A stretch of 35,984 nt of DNA from Thiotrichaceae bacterium (lineage in GTDB: Bacteria > Pseudomonadota > Gammaproteobacteria > Thiotrichales > Thiotrichaceae): assembly GCA_015490895.1 (NCBI GenBank), contig WFWY01000022.1:1-35984 (forward strand), read 5' to 3'. Under the pieces are notes generated by a model. It was given only the letters and a program-made list of their open reading frames with translations, had not been told where the DNA came from and ran no database searches. Made by a program: the position numbers and the translations under genes. Positions 6,167 to 35,955 of the stretch are shown in pieces. Position 1 is the stretch's first letter, and each line of letters begins with the position of its first letter.

Positions 6167-8755
6167 TTACTCTGTTTTGATTCCAGCACTGGTTTTTATT
6201 GCCTTCACTGTAGATTTTGGGGGAATGCGCCCTCCCAGATCCGGGGCATTGGCGTGCATCCAGCTAACGGCGCTGTCAAAATCATGTGCGATGACCTTGC
6301 CATTAAAGGTTTTATTCTCAGCAATAACAGGGACACCACTTTCGTTGGTTTCATGACAGGCTGCACATTTTAGCGGCCCACGACTGCCATCCGGATTGTA
6401 TTGTGGTGGCTGGTTATACGTGGTGGTATCAACACCTGGCGCAACAGGGTACAGGCCATGAATAGACTGATGACAAGCCTGGCACGCGAGACCTGCATGC
6501 CCCTTCGAATAACGCATCTGTGCATATTTCCCTGGCTGCGTAATGGGGAAGGCAACACCGCCCTGCCCTTCAACATAGGGTGGTGCATGACAATCTGCAC
6601 AATGAGGTACACCCGGAGATAGCCAGTAATCGCGTCCATGTGATGCCGCATCATACGGTGCAGCAACAGCACCATCTGCACCTTCTGGCAGGGTCAGTGA
6701 AGCAATATCAGCCTTGGGGTTGGTCGACAGAATCACAACATTAGCATCACCATCTTCATCCTTGTGAATCAGTGGCTTGCCATCTTTTGTGGCAATCACA
6801 GCAATATCGGCAATGACCCTGTCTCTATCCCAGACACGCAAGATATCTTTCATGTCCGCCAGTTTCGGGATAAAGGTGGAAGGTTTGGTTTTTGGATCCA
6901 TCCATTGCTCTGTCAGCTCTTTTACCGTCAGCTTCAGCGCCCTGGCAATCTCTTCCAGTGACTTGTCACGCAAGGTCTCACCTTCCTGCCAGAATGCCTG
7001 CGTAATATTGTCATGCTGATACAGTATACGACTAAGTTCATTATGACAGTTGGTACACCACAACCCCTTGGCTTCCCCGCCCGTTCCAATCTGGGAGATG
7101 TTGCTTTGCAGCCACTTACCGATTGCATTTAAGTGTTCTGGTGTTTCTGCACCATCCCGATCCTTGTTTGGGTTGGAATGCACATCACGGCCCACATAAC
7201 AGCCTCCTGCAGAGTCACGGTTATCAGTGAGCGCATATGTGTTTTTACCTTCTGGAGTAATGGGGTAGCCTTCCATATTATGATCCATACGGTGAGCAGG
7301 ATGACACCCCTGGCAGGTGCCGGTACGGCCTTTTGAATCCGACAGGGAGCGAACTTGCAGGTGCCCACGGTGCATGGCCTGACTCAAGGGTTCCAGTGGC
7401 GTATCACCTTGCATCTTTTTACCCGTGACGGCCTCTGCCGTACCCCTGGAAACCAGCGCACCAATGACATTGTCGGCATGGCATTTTTGACACAGGATGG
7501 GGTCGCGCCCCAGACGGTTGGAGGTGGATCGGCTGTTACTGTCATAATCTTTCAGGAAAGTGGTGCCAAACTTGCCATCGTGTAACTGCAATACCGATAC
7601 CGAAGTGGCTTTCAGGTTTGCAATCCAGTCACTGGCACCCAGGCTTTTCCAGAAGGCTTTTTCTGCCTTGTACAAGGTATGTTTTTTCCCATTGGCATTT
7701 TCATTGGAGTGGCAATTCGCACAGTTTGGAACATCAATCGGGTTGGTGCCGGTAAAACTGATAGGCTTGCCACTATGGCTGTCAAGCACAGGTTTACCCG
7801 TAGTAGCATCCATCAGGTCAACCTTCGCCATCTGGAAGGGGCTGATTTCAGACTCAACCAGTTCCAACGGGTTTTTGCCAACCTGACTATCCATAAACGG
7901 AGTCAACGGCAACCCCAATGCCTCCCAGATACCGGGGTGTGTGAGCATAATGGGCACATTGTCCAGTACTGGCGATTTGGTATACACAATCGTTCCGGTA
8001 TGAGAGGAGTAACGCATATGGCCATCATTTAGCGGGTCTCCCGTGGGGCCATGATCGACCGGTATCTTTAATTGAATACCCACATATTTTTTATCTGCAT
8101 CTTTACTGGTGCCTTTGGCATTGCCCCCTTCCAGATCATCATAGATATACAAGTGGGTAAAATAGGCATTACCGACATTTTCGCCATCTTCATACTTGCC
8201 ATTGTTATTCAAGTCATAAGGTACGCGCCAGTAATTGAGTTTGACACCTTCCGAATAAGAATTCCCGACATGGCTATAATGAAGCTTCATGCGCTTGTCA
8301 CCATCTACCAGTACTCGGGGATCCTTTTCATCCGCACCCAGCAGGACAGGCAGAGTGTTCTTGTCTGTCGCCGTTTTGATAACCTGGCTCTGAATAGAGT
8401 TGTAGGGAGGAAGAATACAACAATACGTAAAATCAAAGCCGGTACAATGCATGCCCAGTTCATAATTGATCGTGATATTGTAATCATTAATGGGTTTGCG
8501 TTCAGACTCCGTCAGCTTCCTGATGATATTCAACGGTTTTTTTACCGGCGAGGCAGCCGCTGTTGAGGCATCAGTCGCAGGGGCGGCATCCGCTATCGCT
8601 GTTTCCACTGCTTCTGCTTTATGCGTTTCAGCGGACTCTTCAGCGCTTAACGAAAAGCTGGCTGTTGCGGCAGCAATAGCTACCACTAACGCCACTCTAT
8701 ACCGGGCGCTACCTGAAGCATGAGAATAAAGTGGAAAATCCTGTTTTTGGGTCAT
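6167..8755 (-). CDS. Seven-haem secreted c-type cytochrome of unknown role
   Basis: Probably a periplasmic or surface electron carrier. The 862-aa product has an N-terminal signal peptide (hydrophobic core VALVVAIAAATASFSLSA, cleavage near residue 38) and seven CXXCH haem-attachment motifs at C345, C422, C481, C567, C719, C758 and C797. Before the haems lies a domain of about 250 residues opening with GMHCTGFDFTYCC (101-113), rich in Cys and His but without CXXCH, and an EF-hand-like DLNNNGKYEDGE (181-192). I chose ATG 8755 because GGAGG lies seven bases upstream; a TTG at 8818 adds no supported sequence. It is downstream of the oxidase, cytochrome c4 and copper-ATPase genes on the same strand. 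I do not recognise a characterised homologue. Confidence 0.9.
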   Translation of the reverse strand: MTQKQDFPLYSHASGSARYRVALVVAIAAATASFSLSAEESAETHKAEAVETAIADAAPATDASTAAASPVKKPLNIIRKLTESERKPINDYNITINYELGMHCTGFDFTYCCILPPYNSIQSQVIKTATDKNTLPVLLGADEKDPRVLVDGDKRMKLHYSHVGNSYSEGVKLNYWRVPYDLNNNGKYEDGENVGNAYFTHLYIYDDLEGGNAKGTSKDADKKYVGIQLKIPVDHGPTGDPLNDGHMRYSSHTGTIVYTKSPVLDNVPIMLTHPGIWEALGLPLTPFMDSQVGKNPLELVESEISPFQMAKVDLMDATTGKPVLDSHSGKPISFTGTNPIDVPNCANCHSNENANGKKHTLYKAEKAFWKSLGASDWIANLKATSVSVLQLHDGKFGTTFLKDYDSNSRSTSNRLGRDPILCQKCHADNVIGALVSRGTAEAVTGKKMQGDTPLEPLSQAMHRGHLQVRSLSDSKGRTGTCQGCHPAHRMDHNMEGYPITPEGKNTYALTDNRDSAGGCYVGRDVHSNPNKDRDGAETPEHLNAIGKWLQSNISQIGTGGEAKGLWCTNCHNELSRILYQHDNITQAFWQEGETLRDKSLEEIARALKLTVKELTEQWMDPKTKPSTFIPKLADMKDILRVWDRDRVIADIAVIATKDGKPLIHKDEDGDANVVILSTNPKADIASLTLPEGADGAVAAPYDAASHGRDYWLSPGVPHCADCHAPPYVEGQGGVAFPITQPGKYAQMRYSKGHAGLACQACHQSIHGLYPVAPGVDTTTYNQPPQYNPDGSRGPLKCAACHETNESGVPVIAENKTFNGKVIAHDFDSAVSWMHANAPDLGGRIPPKSTVKAIKTSAGIKTE

Positions 8756-8814
8756 TATCTTTCCTCCAAGATAAGATACACGACGAACACCGATTGATGT
8801 GCCGGAGAAGGGTA

Positions 8815-8955
8815 TCAATCACGCAGAGCCACACAGCTTCGCCGAGTATCGCAACCTGACATCTCCCCGTCCTTAACATAGGTAAAGAAAGGGCTATTTA
8901 TTAATGCCAAAGTAATTGCCGGGCGACATACCGGAGGAGTTAAAAGGGTTTTCAT
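8815..8955 (-). CDS. Possible 46-aa peptide overlapping the copper-ATPase stop
   Basis: An ATG overlaps the stop of the upstream ATPase gene as ATGA, the arrangement usual for coupled genes, and opens a 46-codon frame starting MKTLLTPPVCRPAITLALIN with three Cys residues. In cbb3 operons a small ccoS gene often follows ccoI, but this peptide lacks the clear membrane helix of CcoS. It may be chance. Otherwise the 196 bases between the ATPase and the cytochrome gene show only the ribosome-binding site of the latter. Confidence 0.2.
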   Translation of the reverse strand: MKTLLTPPVCRPAITLALINSPFFTYVKDGEMSGCDTRRSCVALRD

Positions 8956-15866: not shown

Positions 15867-16011
15867 GCCCCAAAAGAACGATTGGGATTTGGTCAGAGTG
15901 GAATTTCTCGATTGGAAGCTAATAGTCACTCTATCAGGGAGATTTTTAAGCAAAAAAATGACGATATTTCAGCCTCAGGAAAACGACTGGGACTTGATCA
16001 GAGTCTCCTTA
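15867..16011 (-). repeat. Dispersed repeat R2, diverged copy, with internal direct repeat
   Basis: The right end TTGATCAGAGTCTCCTTAA (15993-16011) is the R2 terminus seen at 18839-18858. From about 15949 the sequence aligns to the reverse complement of the copy at 35886-35955 (CAAAAAA, TGACGA, ATTTCA and AGGAAA blocks in order). A second, direct repeat of AACGATTGGGATTTGGTCAGAGT at 15877 recurs as AACGACTGGGACTTGATCAGAGT at 15982, 105 bases later. No protein is expected; the short frame here only reflects the duplication. Confidence 0.6.
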
Positions 16012-18544: not shown

Positions 18545-18784
18545 ATGGATAAGGAAAACTTTCTCGAAGGTTTTTCCTGTCTGAAATAGCATGGTAAGAC
18601 TGGGGACAGCGGGTACAGCCAGTTGTTAAACCAGAACACCTTCCAGCTAGTGCAGGAAAAGCTGTACCGTAACCGTGTAGCCCTGGATCAGTTAATAGTT
18701 GAATTGAATATCCTGATCCAGATATTCATGGATACACTCAGGTGGCGCTACTGTACGACTCCCCAGATCAGCGAGCTAATTTAA
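18545..18784 (+). pseudogene. Small reading frame interrupted by one in-frame TAG
   Basis: An ATG at 18545, with AGGGG just upstream, opens MDKENFLEGFSCLK and stops at TAG 18587-18589. The same frame then stays open for 64 more codons (HGKTGDSGYSQLLNQNTF... through KLYRNRVALDQLIVELNILIQIFMDTLRWRYC) to TAA 18782-18784, where the R2 element begins. A CAG-to-TAG change would explain it. TATAAT at 18515-18520 may be its -10 box. I do not recognise the protein. A decayed gene truncated by the repeat is the simplest reading; read-through of the TAG is possible but unsupported. Confidence 0.35.
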
Positions 18785-18858
18785 GGAGCCTCTGATTAAG
18801 CCTGAGTGGAATTTCATCTCACAGAAAATTCGGCCGGCCTTAATCAGAGTCTCCTTAA
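18781..18858. repeat. Dispersed repeat R2, complete copy with terminal inverted repeats
   Basis: A 78-bp element with 20-bp terminal inverted repeats differing at one base: left arm 18781-18800, right arm 18839-18858 (TTAAGGAG, C or A, then CTCTGATTAAG). The interior holds GAATTTCATCTCACAG and CCGGCC and can itself fold through GAATTT/AAATTC. It lies 52 bases before the repetitive secreted-protein gene and could supply or modify its promoter. It has the form of a MITE; no transposase is present in the window. Confidence 0.85.
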
Positions 18859-18910: not shown

Positions 18911-19636
18911 ATGAAAATACAAGCAACTGCATTCGCAGCTTTTATTGCATTAGCTAGTACAGCTTCAGCAGACTGGATGGATGGTTTTAATCAGGGAAAT
19001 ACCCAGGGCTCAGGAGCTGGTAATGCAGCTGGCTGGGGCACAGGTCAGGGAACGGGTTCCGGCAACACTCAGGGAAATGTAAAAGGCTGGGGTACCGGCA
19101 AGGGTGATGCGGACGGCACTGTAGATTTTGAAATCAAATTCAAAGGCAAGGGTCGTACTAATATGGACGCCAAAGGCTCAGCCGATGGCGAGGGCAAAGG
19201 ATCTGGCAATACCGCCTCAAACTGGACGGGAAGTGGTAATACCACAGGCAATACCGCTATGAGCGGCACGGGTGCCAATAATAACTCCGGCTATGGTAGT
19301 TCAATGCCCTGGAACAATAACACTGGCTATGGAGGTTCATCCATGCCCTGGAGCAACAACAATAACGGCTGGAGCATGCCCTGGAGCAACAATAATAACG
19401 GCTGGAGTATGCCCTGGAGTAATAACAATAATGGCTGGAGTATGCCCTGGCGCAACAACAACAGCGGCTGGAGCATGCCCTGGAGCAACAACTCCACCCC
19501 TTATGGTTATGCCCCCTATGGATACGGTTATGCACCGGCCTATGGTTATGCCCCTTATGGCTACATGCCTGCAATGCCAGCTGCACCTCGTCCCGCTGCG
19601 CCGGCTACGCAACCGGCTACACCTGCGAGCAAGTAA
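18911..19636 (+). CDS. Repetitive Gly/Asn/Trp-rich secreted protein, sulfur-globule-protein-like
   Basis: A 241-aa exported structural protein. After a signal peptide (1-20, ending ASTASA) comes a Gly/Thr/Asn/Gln-rich segment (21-130) interrupted by a charged stretch (VDFEIKFKGKGRTNMDAKG, 71-89). Five tandem 11-residue repeats of the form SMPWSNNNNGW follow (about 144-198, nucleotides 19340-19504), then a Tyr/Gly/Pro tail with YGYAPYGYGYAP and PAAPATQPATPASK. It has no cysteine and no catalytic motif. Low-complexity proteins rich in Gly, Asn, Trp, Tyr and Pro form the envelope of periplasmic sulfur globules in purple sulfur bacteria and relatives; composition and signal peptide suggest a similar role, by inference only. 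GGAGA precedes the ATG and a strong terminator follows, so it is probably monocistronic and highly expressed. Confidence 0.8.
   Translation: MKIQATAFAAFIALASTASADWMDGFNQGNTQGSGAGNAAGWGTGQGTGSGNTQGNVKGWGTGKGDADGTVDFEIKFKGKGRTNMDAKGSADGEGKGSGNTASNWTGSGNTTGNTAMSGTGANNNSGYGSSMPWNNNTGYGGSSMPWSNNNNGWSMPWSNNNNGWSMPWSNNNNGWSMPWRNNNSGWSMPWSNNSTPYGYAPYGYGYAPAYGYAPYGYMPAMPAAPRPAAPATQPATPASK
19340..19504 (+). repeat. Tandem 33-bp coding repeats
   Basis: Five consecutive 33-base units encode SMPW-S/R-NNN-N/S-GW; the last unit diverges (NNSTPY). Units one to three are nearly identical, differing mainly at third codon positions, so they are under protein-level selection or duplicated some time ago. Partial units lie just upstream. 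Confidence 0.85.
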
Positions 19637-19984
19637 ACAGCTATTCTGGCAATGCTAAAGGCCTGCAACCAGCAGGCCTTTTTTATTCCCTGTATTCGCT
19701 GCCAATTTCCGGCCTGCGGGTTACTTTTTCAAACATCAACTGATGTAACCCGTCGGGGTTCAGAGTGTTTCTGTTTGCTGCTCAGGCTGTCCGTTTATGG
19801 CATAAGAACCGATATAAACACCTTTGATGTCCTGTTACGTCGCTTATTTACTTCTATACAAATTCGCAGAAGCAGCACGAATTAACCTAGATTTAAGGAG
19901 ACAAATGGAAGCGTTATAAAACATGGATGATAGCTGGCTTACCTGATAAAATCCGCGCGTGTTTACCAACTATCACTCATCTCA
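19637..19984. other. Intergenic region before the MFS transporter gene
   Basis: Apart from the terminator, I see a weak inverted repeat (GGGTTAC at 19728 region, GTAACCC at 19745 region) and, at about 19895-19908, AAGGAG followed by ATG and a four-codon frame. No gene is supported. Confidence 0.5.
19657..19684 (+). terminator. Rho-independent terminator of the repetitive-protein gene
   Basis: A 10-bp GC-rich stem (AAAGGCCTGC at 19657-19666, GCAGGCCTTT at 19672-19681) with a five-base loop runs into TTTTTT, 20 bases after the stop codon. This is one of the strongest intrinsic terminators in the window. Confidence 0.93.
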
Positions 19985-23512: not shown

Positions 23513-23863
23513 ATGCTAAGTGTACAAGAAGCCGAGGTTTTTCCAGGCAAACGTCCCAATAAAGCAGATAGCCACCGAAGAAGCGTAAACAGCATTGAAC
23601 AACGCGCCCAGAGTAAAGGACTTGAGCTAACCCCCGAGCGTCTTGAGGCCATTGAATTTGTTCAGGACTTCTATGAACACTGTGATGATTGCAAGAATGC
23701 GCGCCAGCTCATGAATATTATGCATCAGGAATTTAAAGACAGAGGTGGCAAGAAATATCTGTACCGTCTGTTTCCCAATGGCCCACTCTCAACTATCCAT
23801 GACCTGATCGATTTACCCAACCTCAATAATCAGGTGGATTTGGGCTTTGGAACATCCTATTAG
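23513..23863 (+). CDS. DsrC/TusE-family protein lacking the C-terminal cysteines
   Basis: A 116-aa small sulfur-relay-family protein. The C-terminal half carries the family core: LTPERLEAIEFVQDFYEHC, then KYLYRLFPNGPLSTIHDLIDLPN. In true DsrC and TusE this arm continues to a penultimate Cys that carries persulfide or trisulfide; here it ends NNQVDLGFGTSY with no Cys in the last 50 residues. The two Cys present (HCDDC, about residues 57-60) are at an unusual place. Arm-cysteine-less paralogues occur in sulfur-metabolising bacteria and have been proposed to be regulatory (RspA). AGAGGA lies upstream of the ATG. It stands alone, divergent from the aldehyde dehydrogenase and convergent with cysZ. 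Confidence 0.85.
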   Translation: MLSVQEAEVFPGKRPNKADSHRRSVNSIEQRAQSKGLELTPERLEAIEFVQDFYEHCDDCKNARQLMNIMHQEFKDRGGKKYLYRLFPNGPLSTIHDLIDLPNLNNQVDLGFGTSY

Positions 23864-31587: not shown

Positions 31588-32814
31588 ATGTTCTTCTCAA
31601 AGCACCCTGTTCAAACAGGTTTTCTTCTCTTCACGCTGGGACTAACGGCCTGCTCCCAGGGTACACATCCCTTACTGGCCAAATCTGCTACAAAACACGA
31701 TAGTGCTTTTTACGGTACTTATCTGTTTGTCGGCAAATGTCAAAACAGTATCGCCAGTGAAAACCAGGTTAAGGGGCTTTTTACCCGGGAAATTATAGCT
31801 ACTCTGGCAGGCGGCGCACTCAAGACTGGTATCGACTGGCTAGGCACAGCCTTGCAAAAAGCGGCCAAACCGGATATCGACAAAACCACCATCAGCAGCA
31901 ATCTGACCTCCATACAACAACTGTCAAGCACTGCAAACATCTGCATCCAGGTAGCCAGAGGCCAGTTTCGTTATCAACAGAATAATTCAGGATCCCGGGA
32001 TACAGGCTCCAGAAGTTTTACTAATGCCTTGCCTGCCAAGTCGGGCAAACACGCAGCCGCGCCTGTCTATCTTGTCGAGGGAACAGAAGAGCTGTTTATT
32101 GAAATCCTGCCGATTATTCGTGACCAGGTTATTTCATTTACGCCGCTGGAAGTCCGCTATAGCGGATATACAGCCAATGATCGCCGTAACAAACACCCCA
32201 GAGATCTGGCCATTTTCGTTGGCTACTCTCCCATCAGTAAAGATATTACCCAGGGCGATTTTACCGGACGCCTTATTGACTTTGGCACATTACAACCCCG
32301 AAAAAACAAACCCGCTATCAATAAATATGTCAGCGCTGATGGCAAACTCTCACTGGTCAAGCAGACACAGTGGCTTGCCTTGAATGACACCAACAAACCA
32401 GTAACGCTGGCTGTTACGCTGATTGAGACACGCCAGCCCGGACGTTTTGCAAGCTTCATGGCAGAAGTATTTAACTCCAGCAAGGCCGATATAAAAACTC
32501 AGGCTGCTGCGGCACTTGCCGAACTGGAGATCTTCAAAAATACCAGAGCACTGGAAAAAGAACGGCTGGAGGCAGAACGAGAGCAATTACAGAATCAGCA
32601 GGATTACTTCGAAGCCGAAGCGGCTGTGCTGTCAGGTATTGAAAAACTGGCAGCCCTGTGTGCTTCCCAGCCTGTTAGCAAAACAGACATCTATAACGCC
32701 CAGAAAGATGTCTATCTGGCCAGACTCAAAGCAAACATTAGCGCGGTACTGGCAGGAAAAAGTCGACCTTATAATCCGTCAGAAATAAAACCACCAAGCG
32801 GTATTTGTCAGTGA
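31588..32814 (+). CDS. Lipoprotein of unknown function
   Basis: A 408-aa predicted lipoprotein. A signal peptide with a lipobox (LGLTAC, Cys22) precedes a mature region I cannot assign. It has a segment with GALKTGIDWLGTALQKAAKPD (about 74-95), a beta-rich middle (EELFIEILPIIRDQVISFTPLEVRYSGY; then RDLAIFVGYSPI), and a helical coiled-coil-like tail (about 305-345, rich in Glu, Leu and Gln). Residues after Cys22 are Ser-Gln, so outer-membrane sorting is expected. It lies 82 bases after zipA in the position where ligA is often found. Confidence 0.75.
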   Translation: MFFSKHPVQTGFLLFTLGLTACSQGTHPLLAKSATKHDSAFYGTYLFVGKCQNSIASENQVKGLFTREIIATLAGGALKTGIDWLGTALQKAAKPDIDKTTISSNLTSIQQLSSTANICIQVARGQFRYQQNNSGSRDTGSRSFTNALPAKSGKHAAAPVYLVEGTEELFIEILPIIRDQVISFTPLEVRYSGYTANDRRNKHPRDLAIFVGYSPISKDITQGDFTGRLIDFGTLQPRKNKPAINKYVSADGKLSLVKQTQWLALNDTNKPVTLAVTLIETRQPGRFASFMAEVFNSSKADIKTQAAAALAELEIFKNTRALEKERLEAEREQLQNQQDYFEAEAAVLSGIEKLAALCASQPVSKTDIYNAQKDVYLARLKANISAVLAGKSRPYNPSEIKPPSGICQ

Positions 32815-35885: not shown

Positions 35886-35955
35886 CAGAGTCTCCTTTAG
35901 GAGCCTCTGATTAAGTCCGGTCGAATTTCCTGTGAGATGAAATTCGTCAGTTTTT
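35886..35955 (-). repeat. Dispersed repeat R2, head-to-head ends
   Basis: An R2 right end (AGAGTCTCCTT, 35887-35897) directly abuts an R2 left end (TAGGAGCCTCTGATTAAG, 35898-35915). The interior (CCGG, CGAATTT, CTGTGAGATGAAATTC) then matches the reverse complement of the interior at 18781-18858. After about 35945 the sequence no longer matches that short copy, so it may be a longer relative continuing beyond the window. Confidence 0.65.

Follow-up and report, generated by a model that had tools for sequence, protein, structure and literature searches.

The gene and its surroundings

The window, that is, the whole stretch of 35,984 nt that was analyzed, carries a gene for an exported protein, P0001, whose ATG is preceded by a purine-rich, ribosome-binding-like stretch (Table 1). 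As read from the sequence, the N-terminus, MKIQATAFAAFIALASTASA with DW directly after the cleavage point, is a signal of the Sec type, with cleavage at an A-x-A motif. A cleavable periplasmic signal peptide is one mark of the globule-envelope class of proteins, and a pattern script finds A-x-A before D/E/N in 84 of the 85 members of the family described below. Another mark of this class is a low-complexity, Gly/aromatic/Pro-rich chain free of cysteine, and this too is found in P0001, whose mature chain contains 19.5% Gly, 14.9% Asn, and 10.4% Ser. Tandem Repeats Finder locates a 33-bp unit at 19342-19492 (score 239; 4.6 copies with 88% matches); ahead of it, at 19280-19361, lies a degenerate array with a 36-bp unit. 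The unit encodes 11 residues, SMPWSNNNNGW, and the repeat is beyond chance. Thus, the open reading frame, signal peptide, lack of cysteine, and tandem 11-residue units that a sequence-only reading had reported for this locus are all borne out (241 aa, a Sec-type signal, 0 Cys, and a 33-bp repeat).

Table 1. Coordinates of the P0001 gene, its parts, neighboring elements, and a partner-family gene at another locus
Feature	Position	Strand	Remarks
Imperfect palindromic repeat element	18781..18858	.	upstream of the P0001 gene; genome-wide repeat
P0001 gene (exported protein of 241 aa)	18911..19636	+	ATG start, open frame; three same-genome paralogues, E 4.5e-40 to 1.9e-37
Signal peptide, residues 1-20	18911..18970	+	read from sequence; cleavage predicted after ASA20
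Conserved core, residues 21-124	18971..19282	+	GxGN-rich; alignments A1-A3, A5
SMPW(S)NNNNGW tandem repeats, 33-36 bp units, residues ~125-195	19280..19492	+	Tandem Repeats Finder
YGYAPYGY tail with the Pro/Ala-rich end (residues ~197-241)	19498..19633	+	resembles tails of PF17228 proteins
Terminator-like hairpin, T-rich tail	19657..19681	+	consensus match
A4 family member	L003:2355-2705		exported, Gly/Tyr/Pro-rich; conserved DWPEWTPMYWMEEF block

The gene stands alone, with a sigma-70-family factor encoded upstream and an MFS transporter downstream. An operon with these neighbors was considered and rejected, given the sigma-70-family factor and the palindromic repeat on one side and the transporter and the hairpin on the other. 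The number of hairpin sites in the region, two, is close to that in shuffled sequence (mean 1.3). The palindromic repeat, which also occurs at 15993-16008 and 35900-35915, is a MITE- or REP-like element; its half-site, GGAGCCTCTGATTAAG, is found 185 times (95 + 90, at most one mismatch) in the 2.78-Mb genome, versus 0 for the reversed control. It probably lies outside the function of the P0001 gene.

Elsewhere in the window, a DsrC/TusE-like protein (PF04358, 43.8 bits) is encoded at 23513-23863 (+); it has no cysteines near its C-terminus, only internal ones (EHCDDC). A large multihaem cytochrome (PF14522, PF22113) is encoded at 6167-8818 (-), next to a heavy-metal P-type ATPase and to a cytochrome oxidase cluster. 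The 408-aa product of 31588-32814 (+) begins like a lipoprotein and matches no Pfam model. A search of Rfam over the whole window and a search of a plasmid collection each returned zero matches. The best match in a profile search of PDB sequences had an E value of 0.017, and the matches were taken as compositional; AlphaFold2, run on family alignment A5 (61 sequences), gave no usable fold (mean pLDDT 45.9, pTM 0.20).

A family defined by its core

The same genome encodes four proteins of this family, P0001 and three paralogues, which lie on contigs 148, 156, and 1. All four have in common a core of about 120 residues, which aligns as GKGDADG-VDF-I-FKGKGRT-MD, and they differ in their tails. 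In the alignments (A1-A3, A5), the most conserved core segment is GWGTGKGDADG-VDFEIKFKGKGRTNMD. The sequence-only reading had treated VDFEIKFKGKG as a charged insert and the repeats as diagnostic. This assignment was wrong and has to be reversed: because VDFEIKFKGKG is present in all four paralogues and in the family core, where it is the most conserved portion, and the repeats are variable, the "insert" is actually the family signature. Consistent with this, the pattern [FL]K[GA] occurs in 85 of 85 members. By contrast, the SMPW repeats were rejected as a family-defining feature, since at least two MPW units are present in only 12 of the 85 (by pattern).

The repeat tail is instead a fast-changing accessory, one tail type among several. 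Even in the closest relatives (L005 and L006), the repeats have already changed in number and spelling. Members range in length from 124 to 297 aa and have several kinds of tail: a Gln/Lys/Glu-rich, probably helical C-terminal tail is present in about 45 of 85 (a rough pattern), and a YGY or YAP motif in 48 of 85 (by pattern). Cysteine is absent in 84 of the 85 distinct members; L011, which has masked residues, and L077 in two broken frames were excluded from this set.

When one genome from each of 84,980 species was scanned with a pattern, 60 loci emerged, all labeled as Thiotrichaceae or its genera (Cocleimonas, Thiothrix, and Leucothrix) except for one in a MAG labeled Aquificaceae. Among cultured relatives, Cocleimonas flava has members of the family (L023 and L039), as does a Thiothrix species. 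The family member on that contig (L028, MAG 28) is probably there through a binning error. Within the order, the family is found in 50 of 63 genomes, and in genus g8 there are 1-10 copies per genome (median 6). We infer that g2 is Cocleimonas (from an identical locus, L074/L023), g8 Thiothrix, and g4 Leucothrix.

Shared distribution with rDsr and another exported family

A further mark of the globule-envelope class is its occurrence in organisms with the reverse Dsr (rDsr) pathway, through which stored sulfur is consumed, and the genome that encodes P0001 has both dsrA (592 bits) and soxB. Among the 47 genomes of the order that are at least 90% complete (chosen by completeness only; the quality set of the tool itself has 46), the family and dsr are both present in 40, the family alone in one (G003), dsr alone in one (G029), and neither in five. 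For all 63 genomes of the order, the corresponding numbers are 44, 6, 4, and 9. In these counts, dsr-positive includes genomes with dsrB only or partial genes (G009, G016, G025, G026, and G046), and dsr-negative includes G036, G003, G013, G018, G022, and G043; the Fisher tests of co-occurrence ignore phylogeny. The family and dsr are also absent together inside genera g7 (G040, G041, and G045) and g4, where all seven genomes lack the family. Since soxB is present in five of the nine genomes that have neither the family nor dsr, the family follows rDsr rather than sulfur oxidation in general.

In the class outside Thiotrichaceae (366 genomes), 42 genomes match the core profile A3, often weakly. 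Of these, 35 have dsrA (a match at E < 1e-30, with partial genes at contig ends included), versus 81 of the 324 A3-negative genomes; the other seven A3-positive genomes are without dsrA. A PF17228 protein is found in 28 of the 42. The sequence-only reading had proposed beforehand that it be judged by whether homologues lie mainly in organisms without sulfur metabolism. It survived this test at both levels: dsr is present in 40 of the 41 family-positive genomes of the order that are at least 90% complete, and the divergent core matches in the class follow dsrA.

A second exported family, A4, shows a similar distribution. Its members have the signature EWKMGPYGPYWDESDWPEWTPMYWMEEF and a Gly/Tyr/Pro-rich tail, and in L003, L019, and L024 an A4 protein follows a member of the core family within about 1 kb. 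A4 is found in 47 of the 50 family-positive genomes of the order, a count that includes five weak matches (G001, G003, G005, G006, and G018), and in none of the 13 family-negative ones; at a strict threshold (E < 1e-15), the numbers are 42 of 50 and 0 of 13. At the class level, 21 of the 22 A4-positive genomes are A3-positive, and within the dsrA-positive genomes of the class, A3 matches are present in 19 of 20 with A4 versus 16 of 96 without it. Four genomes (G009-G011 and G029) have dsr and lack both the core family and A4; these organisms may have no internal sulfur storage or may use other proteins.

Thus, the two families are alike in being exported, in having Gly/Tyr/Pro-rich tails, in occurring in the same genomes, and in being adjacent at the three loci above. 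However, A4 is without the GKGDADG-VDF core and has a conserved Trp/acidic block in its place. The A4 copy in the genome of P0001 has zero matches in Pfam or NCBIfam. As side observations, a related copy of the palindromic repeat sits between the family member and its A4 partner in L003, and in a genome of genus g8 an exported protein with SMPFNWNN/SMPWNNN-like units (L080:682-1425, -), which lies outside the core family, is encoded next to an A4 member.

Possible kinship with sulfur globule proteins

P0001 scores 18.6 bits with PF17228, the model of sulfur globule proteins (SGPs), and so misses the cut-off of 26.7 bits; the paralogues give 16 bits, 17 bits, and no match. Scores above this cut-off occur among members from genera g7 and g8. 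No NCBIfam model is matched above its cut-off, the best scores being 17 bits versus 650 and 10.5 versus 293 for P0001 and at most 20.3 versus 650 for the paralogues. Matches to Pfam TrAA12 and to NCBIfam serine-rich models were rejected as compositional. At the class level, 40 of 91 places found with A3 coincide with a PF17228 place, among the matches listed.

A comparison of the family profile with an SGP profile by hhalign gives a match of 84.5% with a score of 39.6; the highest score among 200 column shuffles is 18.9, and the reversed profile reaches 23.0. The SGP set consisted of 27 of 30 proteins, since L132, L135, and L138 had been read in a wrong frame by the script and were excluded. 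With the SGP profile, all 85 family cores beat all of 300 composition shuffles, and 83 of 85 outscore their own reversed sequence. However, more stringent controls weakened this result. Only 23 of the 85 cores beat all of 100 four-residue block shuffles, and the 11.4 bits of the P0001 core are reached by 11 of 100 such shuffles. In the converse search, only 15 of the 27 SGPs outscore their own reverse with the family profile. Against the SGP profile, the P0001 tail outscores every one of 300 composition shuffles, but this is true of only 17 of 77 tails overall. Furthermore, when the core segment is deleted from the profile, a 76% hhalign match remains, via a chimeric junction; the profile score is consequently in part compositional. 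The raw SGP profile match was therefore rejected as proof of kinship.

Other similarities are found between individual proteins. Two SGPs, L124 and L126, are near-intermediates with the core GEAEATFSMTFTGKGKT and beat all of their own shuffles with the family profile. Two other PF17228 proteins, L145 and L146 (G118:C7 and G254:C128), which come from another family within the class, have long MPWNNGNN arrays ahead of the core. The sequence-only reading had stated that the SMPW...NNNNGW pattern could not be matched to a named globule protein. This holds insofar as no curated cut-off is reached, but the MPWNN repeats of L145 and L146 show that similar units are present in PF17228 proteins. Taken together, the sequence comparisons suggest a distant kinship with the PF17228 SGPs, probable at the level of the family and unproven at that of P0001 alone.

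Interpretation

Given all of these results, P0001 is likely to be a secreted structural protein of the periplasmic sulfur-globule envelope, one of four paralogues of a Thiotrichaceae-centered family that would represent a divergent SGP subfamily. The family as a whole is probably a new, unannotated subfamily of such envelope proteins, a localization and function deduced from sequence and distribution. Consequently, the globule-envelope identity originally proposed is partly supported: the co-distribution with rDsr and the presence of MPWNN repeats in SGP-family proteins argue for it, whereas the PF17228 score of P0001 (18.6 versus 26.7 bits) does not.

In this model of a globule coat, Sec export and cleavage would yield a mature Gly/Asn-rich protein in the periplasm. 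The core, with its short alternating VDFEIKFKGKG segment, would pack beside its own copies and those of the paralogues to form a thin coat, so that several paralogues might mix within one envelope. The aromatic-proline tails (MPW/NNNNGW and YGYAPYGY) could then lie against the hydrophobic sulfur, and the coat would keep it dispersed and available for delivery to the rDsr route in the cytoplasm.

Alternatively, P0001 might belong to the extracellular matrix, the sheath, or the holdfast of filamentous Thiotrichaceae, perhaps as an amyloid-like protein, and be exported across both membranes; if so, the link to rDsr would simply reflect a shared lineage or lifestyle. Exported low-complexity Gly/Asn-rich proteins are often matrix proteins, the core has a GxGN-type periodicity, and filamentous, attached bacteria abound in the order. 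This explanation is nonetheless unlikely. The P0001 sequence shows no outer-membrane secretion or sorting signal, and the family is missing from seven of seven genomes of g4, the genus that looks like filamentous, attached Leucothrix. In addition, the family and dsr are absent together within g7, and the class-level matches still track dsrA and PF17228 across many other families.

Two further possibilities concern the tie to sulfur itself. The same phylogenetic pattern would be expected of a periplasmic sulfur-metabolism protein that does not coat globules, such as a soluble binder of polysulfide or sulfane sulfur or a matrix organizer of periplasmic invaginations. The high number of paralogues (median 6, maximum 10 in g8) would fit diversified binders, but it would fit an abundant matrix component as well. 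Because all but one of the 85 members are without cysteine, covalent persulfide carriage is unlikely, and the low complexity and SGP-like tails favor a structural role; a non-coat function is thus given little probability. Finally, the resemblance to SGPs could be purely one of composition; in that case, the family, exported and of low complexity, would be unrelated to them and would have a function unconnected to sulfur. The block-shuffle and deletion controls do show that the profile signal is partly local composition. However, the co-occurrence with rDsr and A4, also inside dsrA-positive genomes, is independent of the PF17228 profile comparison, and nearly all cores outscore their reversed sequence, making this explanation very improbable.

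Starting again from the globule-envelope reading, a broader proposal can be put forward, though more tentatively. The coat of Thiotrichaceae might be a two-family module that curated libraries largely miss, composed of A4 and a self-assembling core family with up to 10 genes per genome and interchangeable tails. The MPWNNN and YGYAP tails would then serve as portable modules that face the sulfur and that otherwise different globule proteins have either shared or reinvented, and the size or surface of the globule might be adjusted through the choice of paralogue.

Although sulfur globules are large storage bodies, their coat has been characterized at the protein level in few organisms. The family and its co-absent companion A4 provide a concrete gene set that can be tested in culturable Thiothrix or Cocleimonas. 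The capacity to form globules would also become readable from genomes in which PF17228 finds nothing, including that of P0001.

Comparison with known globule proteins

In the collection of papers that was searched for sulfur globule proteins, no listed title or abstract opening describes the family. In Allochromatium vinosum, SgpA-C form the globule envelope, SgpD is a fourth globule protein, and mutants are altered in globule formation; the number of predicted sgp genes varies between species, from one to six, with six in Thiothrix caldifontis (PMC10386293). The family resembles SgpA, SgpB, and SgpC and the PF17228 proteins in having a Sec signal, a small size, a mature chain rich in Gly, Tyr, Asn, and Pro, and an occurrence in rDsr organisms. 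The PF17228 proteins that were examined, which do not include the A. vinosum sequences, have a GxGDxDFxMxFxGxG-like core and a YGYAPYGY/Pro-Ala tail like that of P0001, and some (L145 and L146) share the MPWNN repeats. In contrast, P0001 lies below the cut-off, and the family core is longer, with a fixed GWGTGKGDADGEVDFxIxFKGKG[RK]TxMD segment and several kinds of tail.

Likenesses to two other proteins are by description rather than by sequence. SgpD of A. vinosum, which has also been studied as an mCherry fusion, is exported and globule-associated and is described as possibly coiled-coil (PMC10386293); 45 of the 85 family members (a rough pattern) have a Gln/Lys/Glu-rich, probably helical tail. 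In Beggiatoa leptomitoformis, the 15-kDa globule envelope protein ALG67575.1 is described as having a signal peptide, regularly spaced prolines, and no conserved domain (PMC7356093). Thiosulfate induces its gene 10-fold, a transposon insertion there is accompanied by loss of storage, and the protein is reportedly required for sulfur storage (PMC7356093). ALG67575.1 may be closer to A4 than to the core family.
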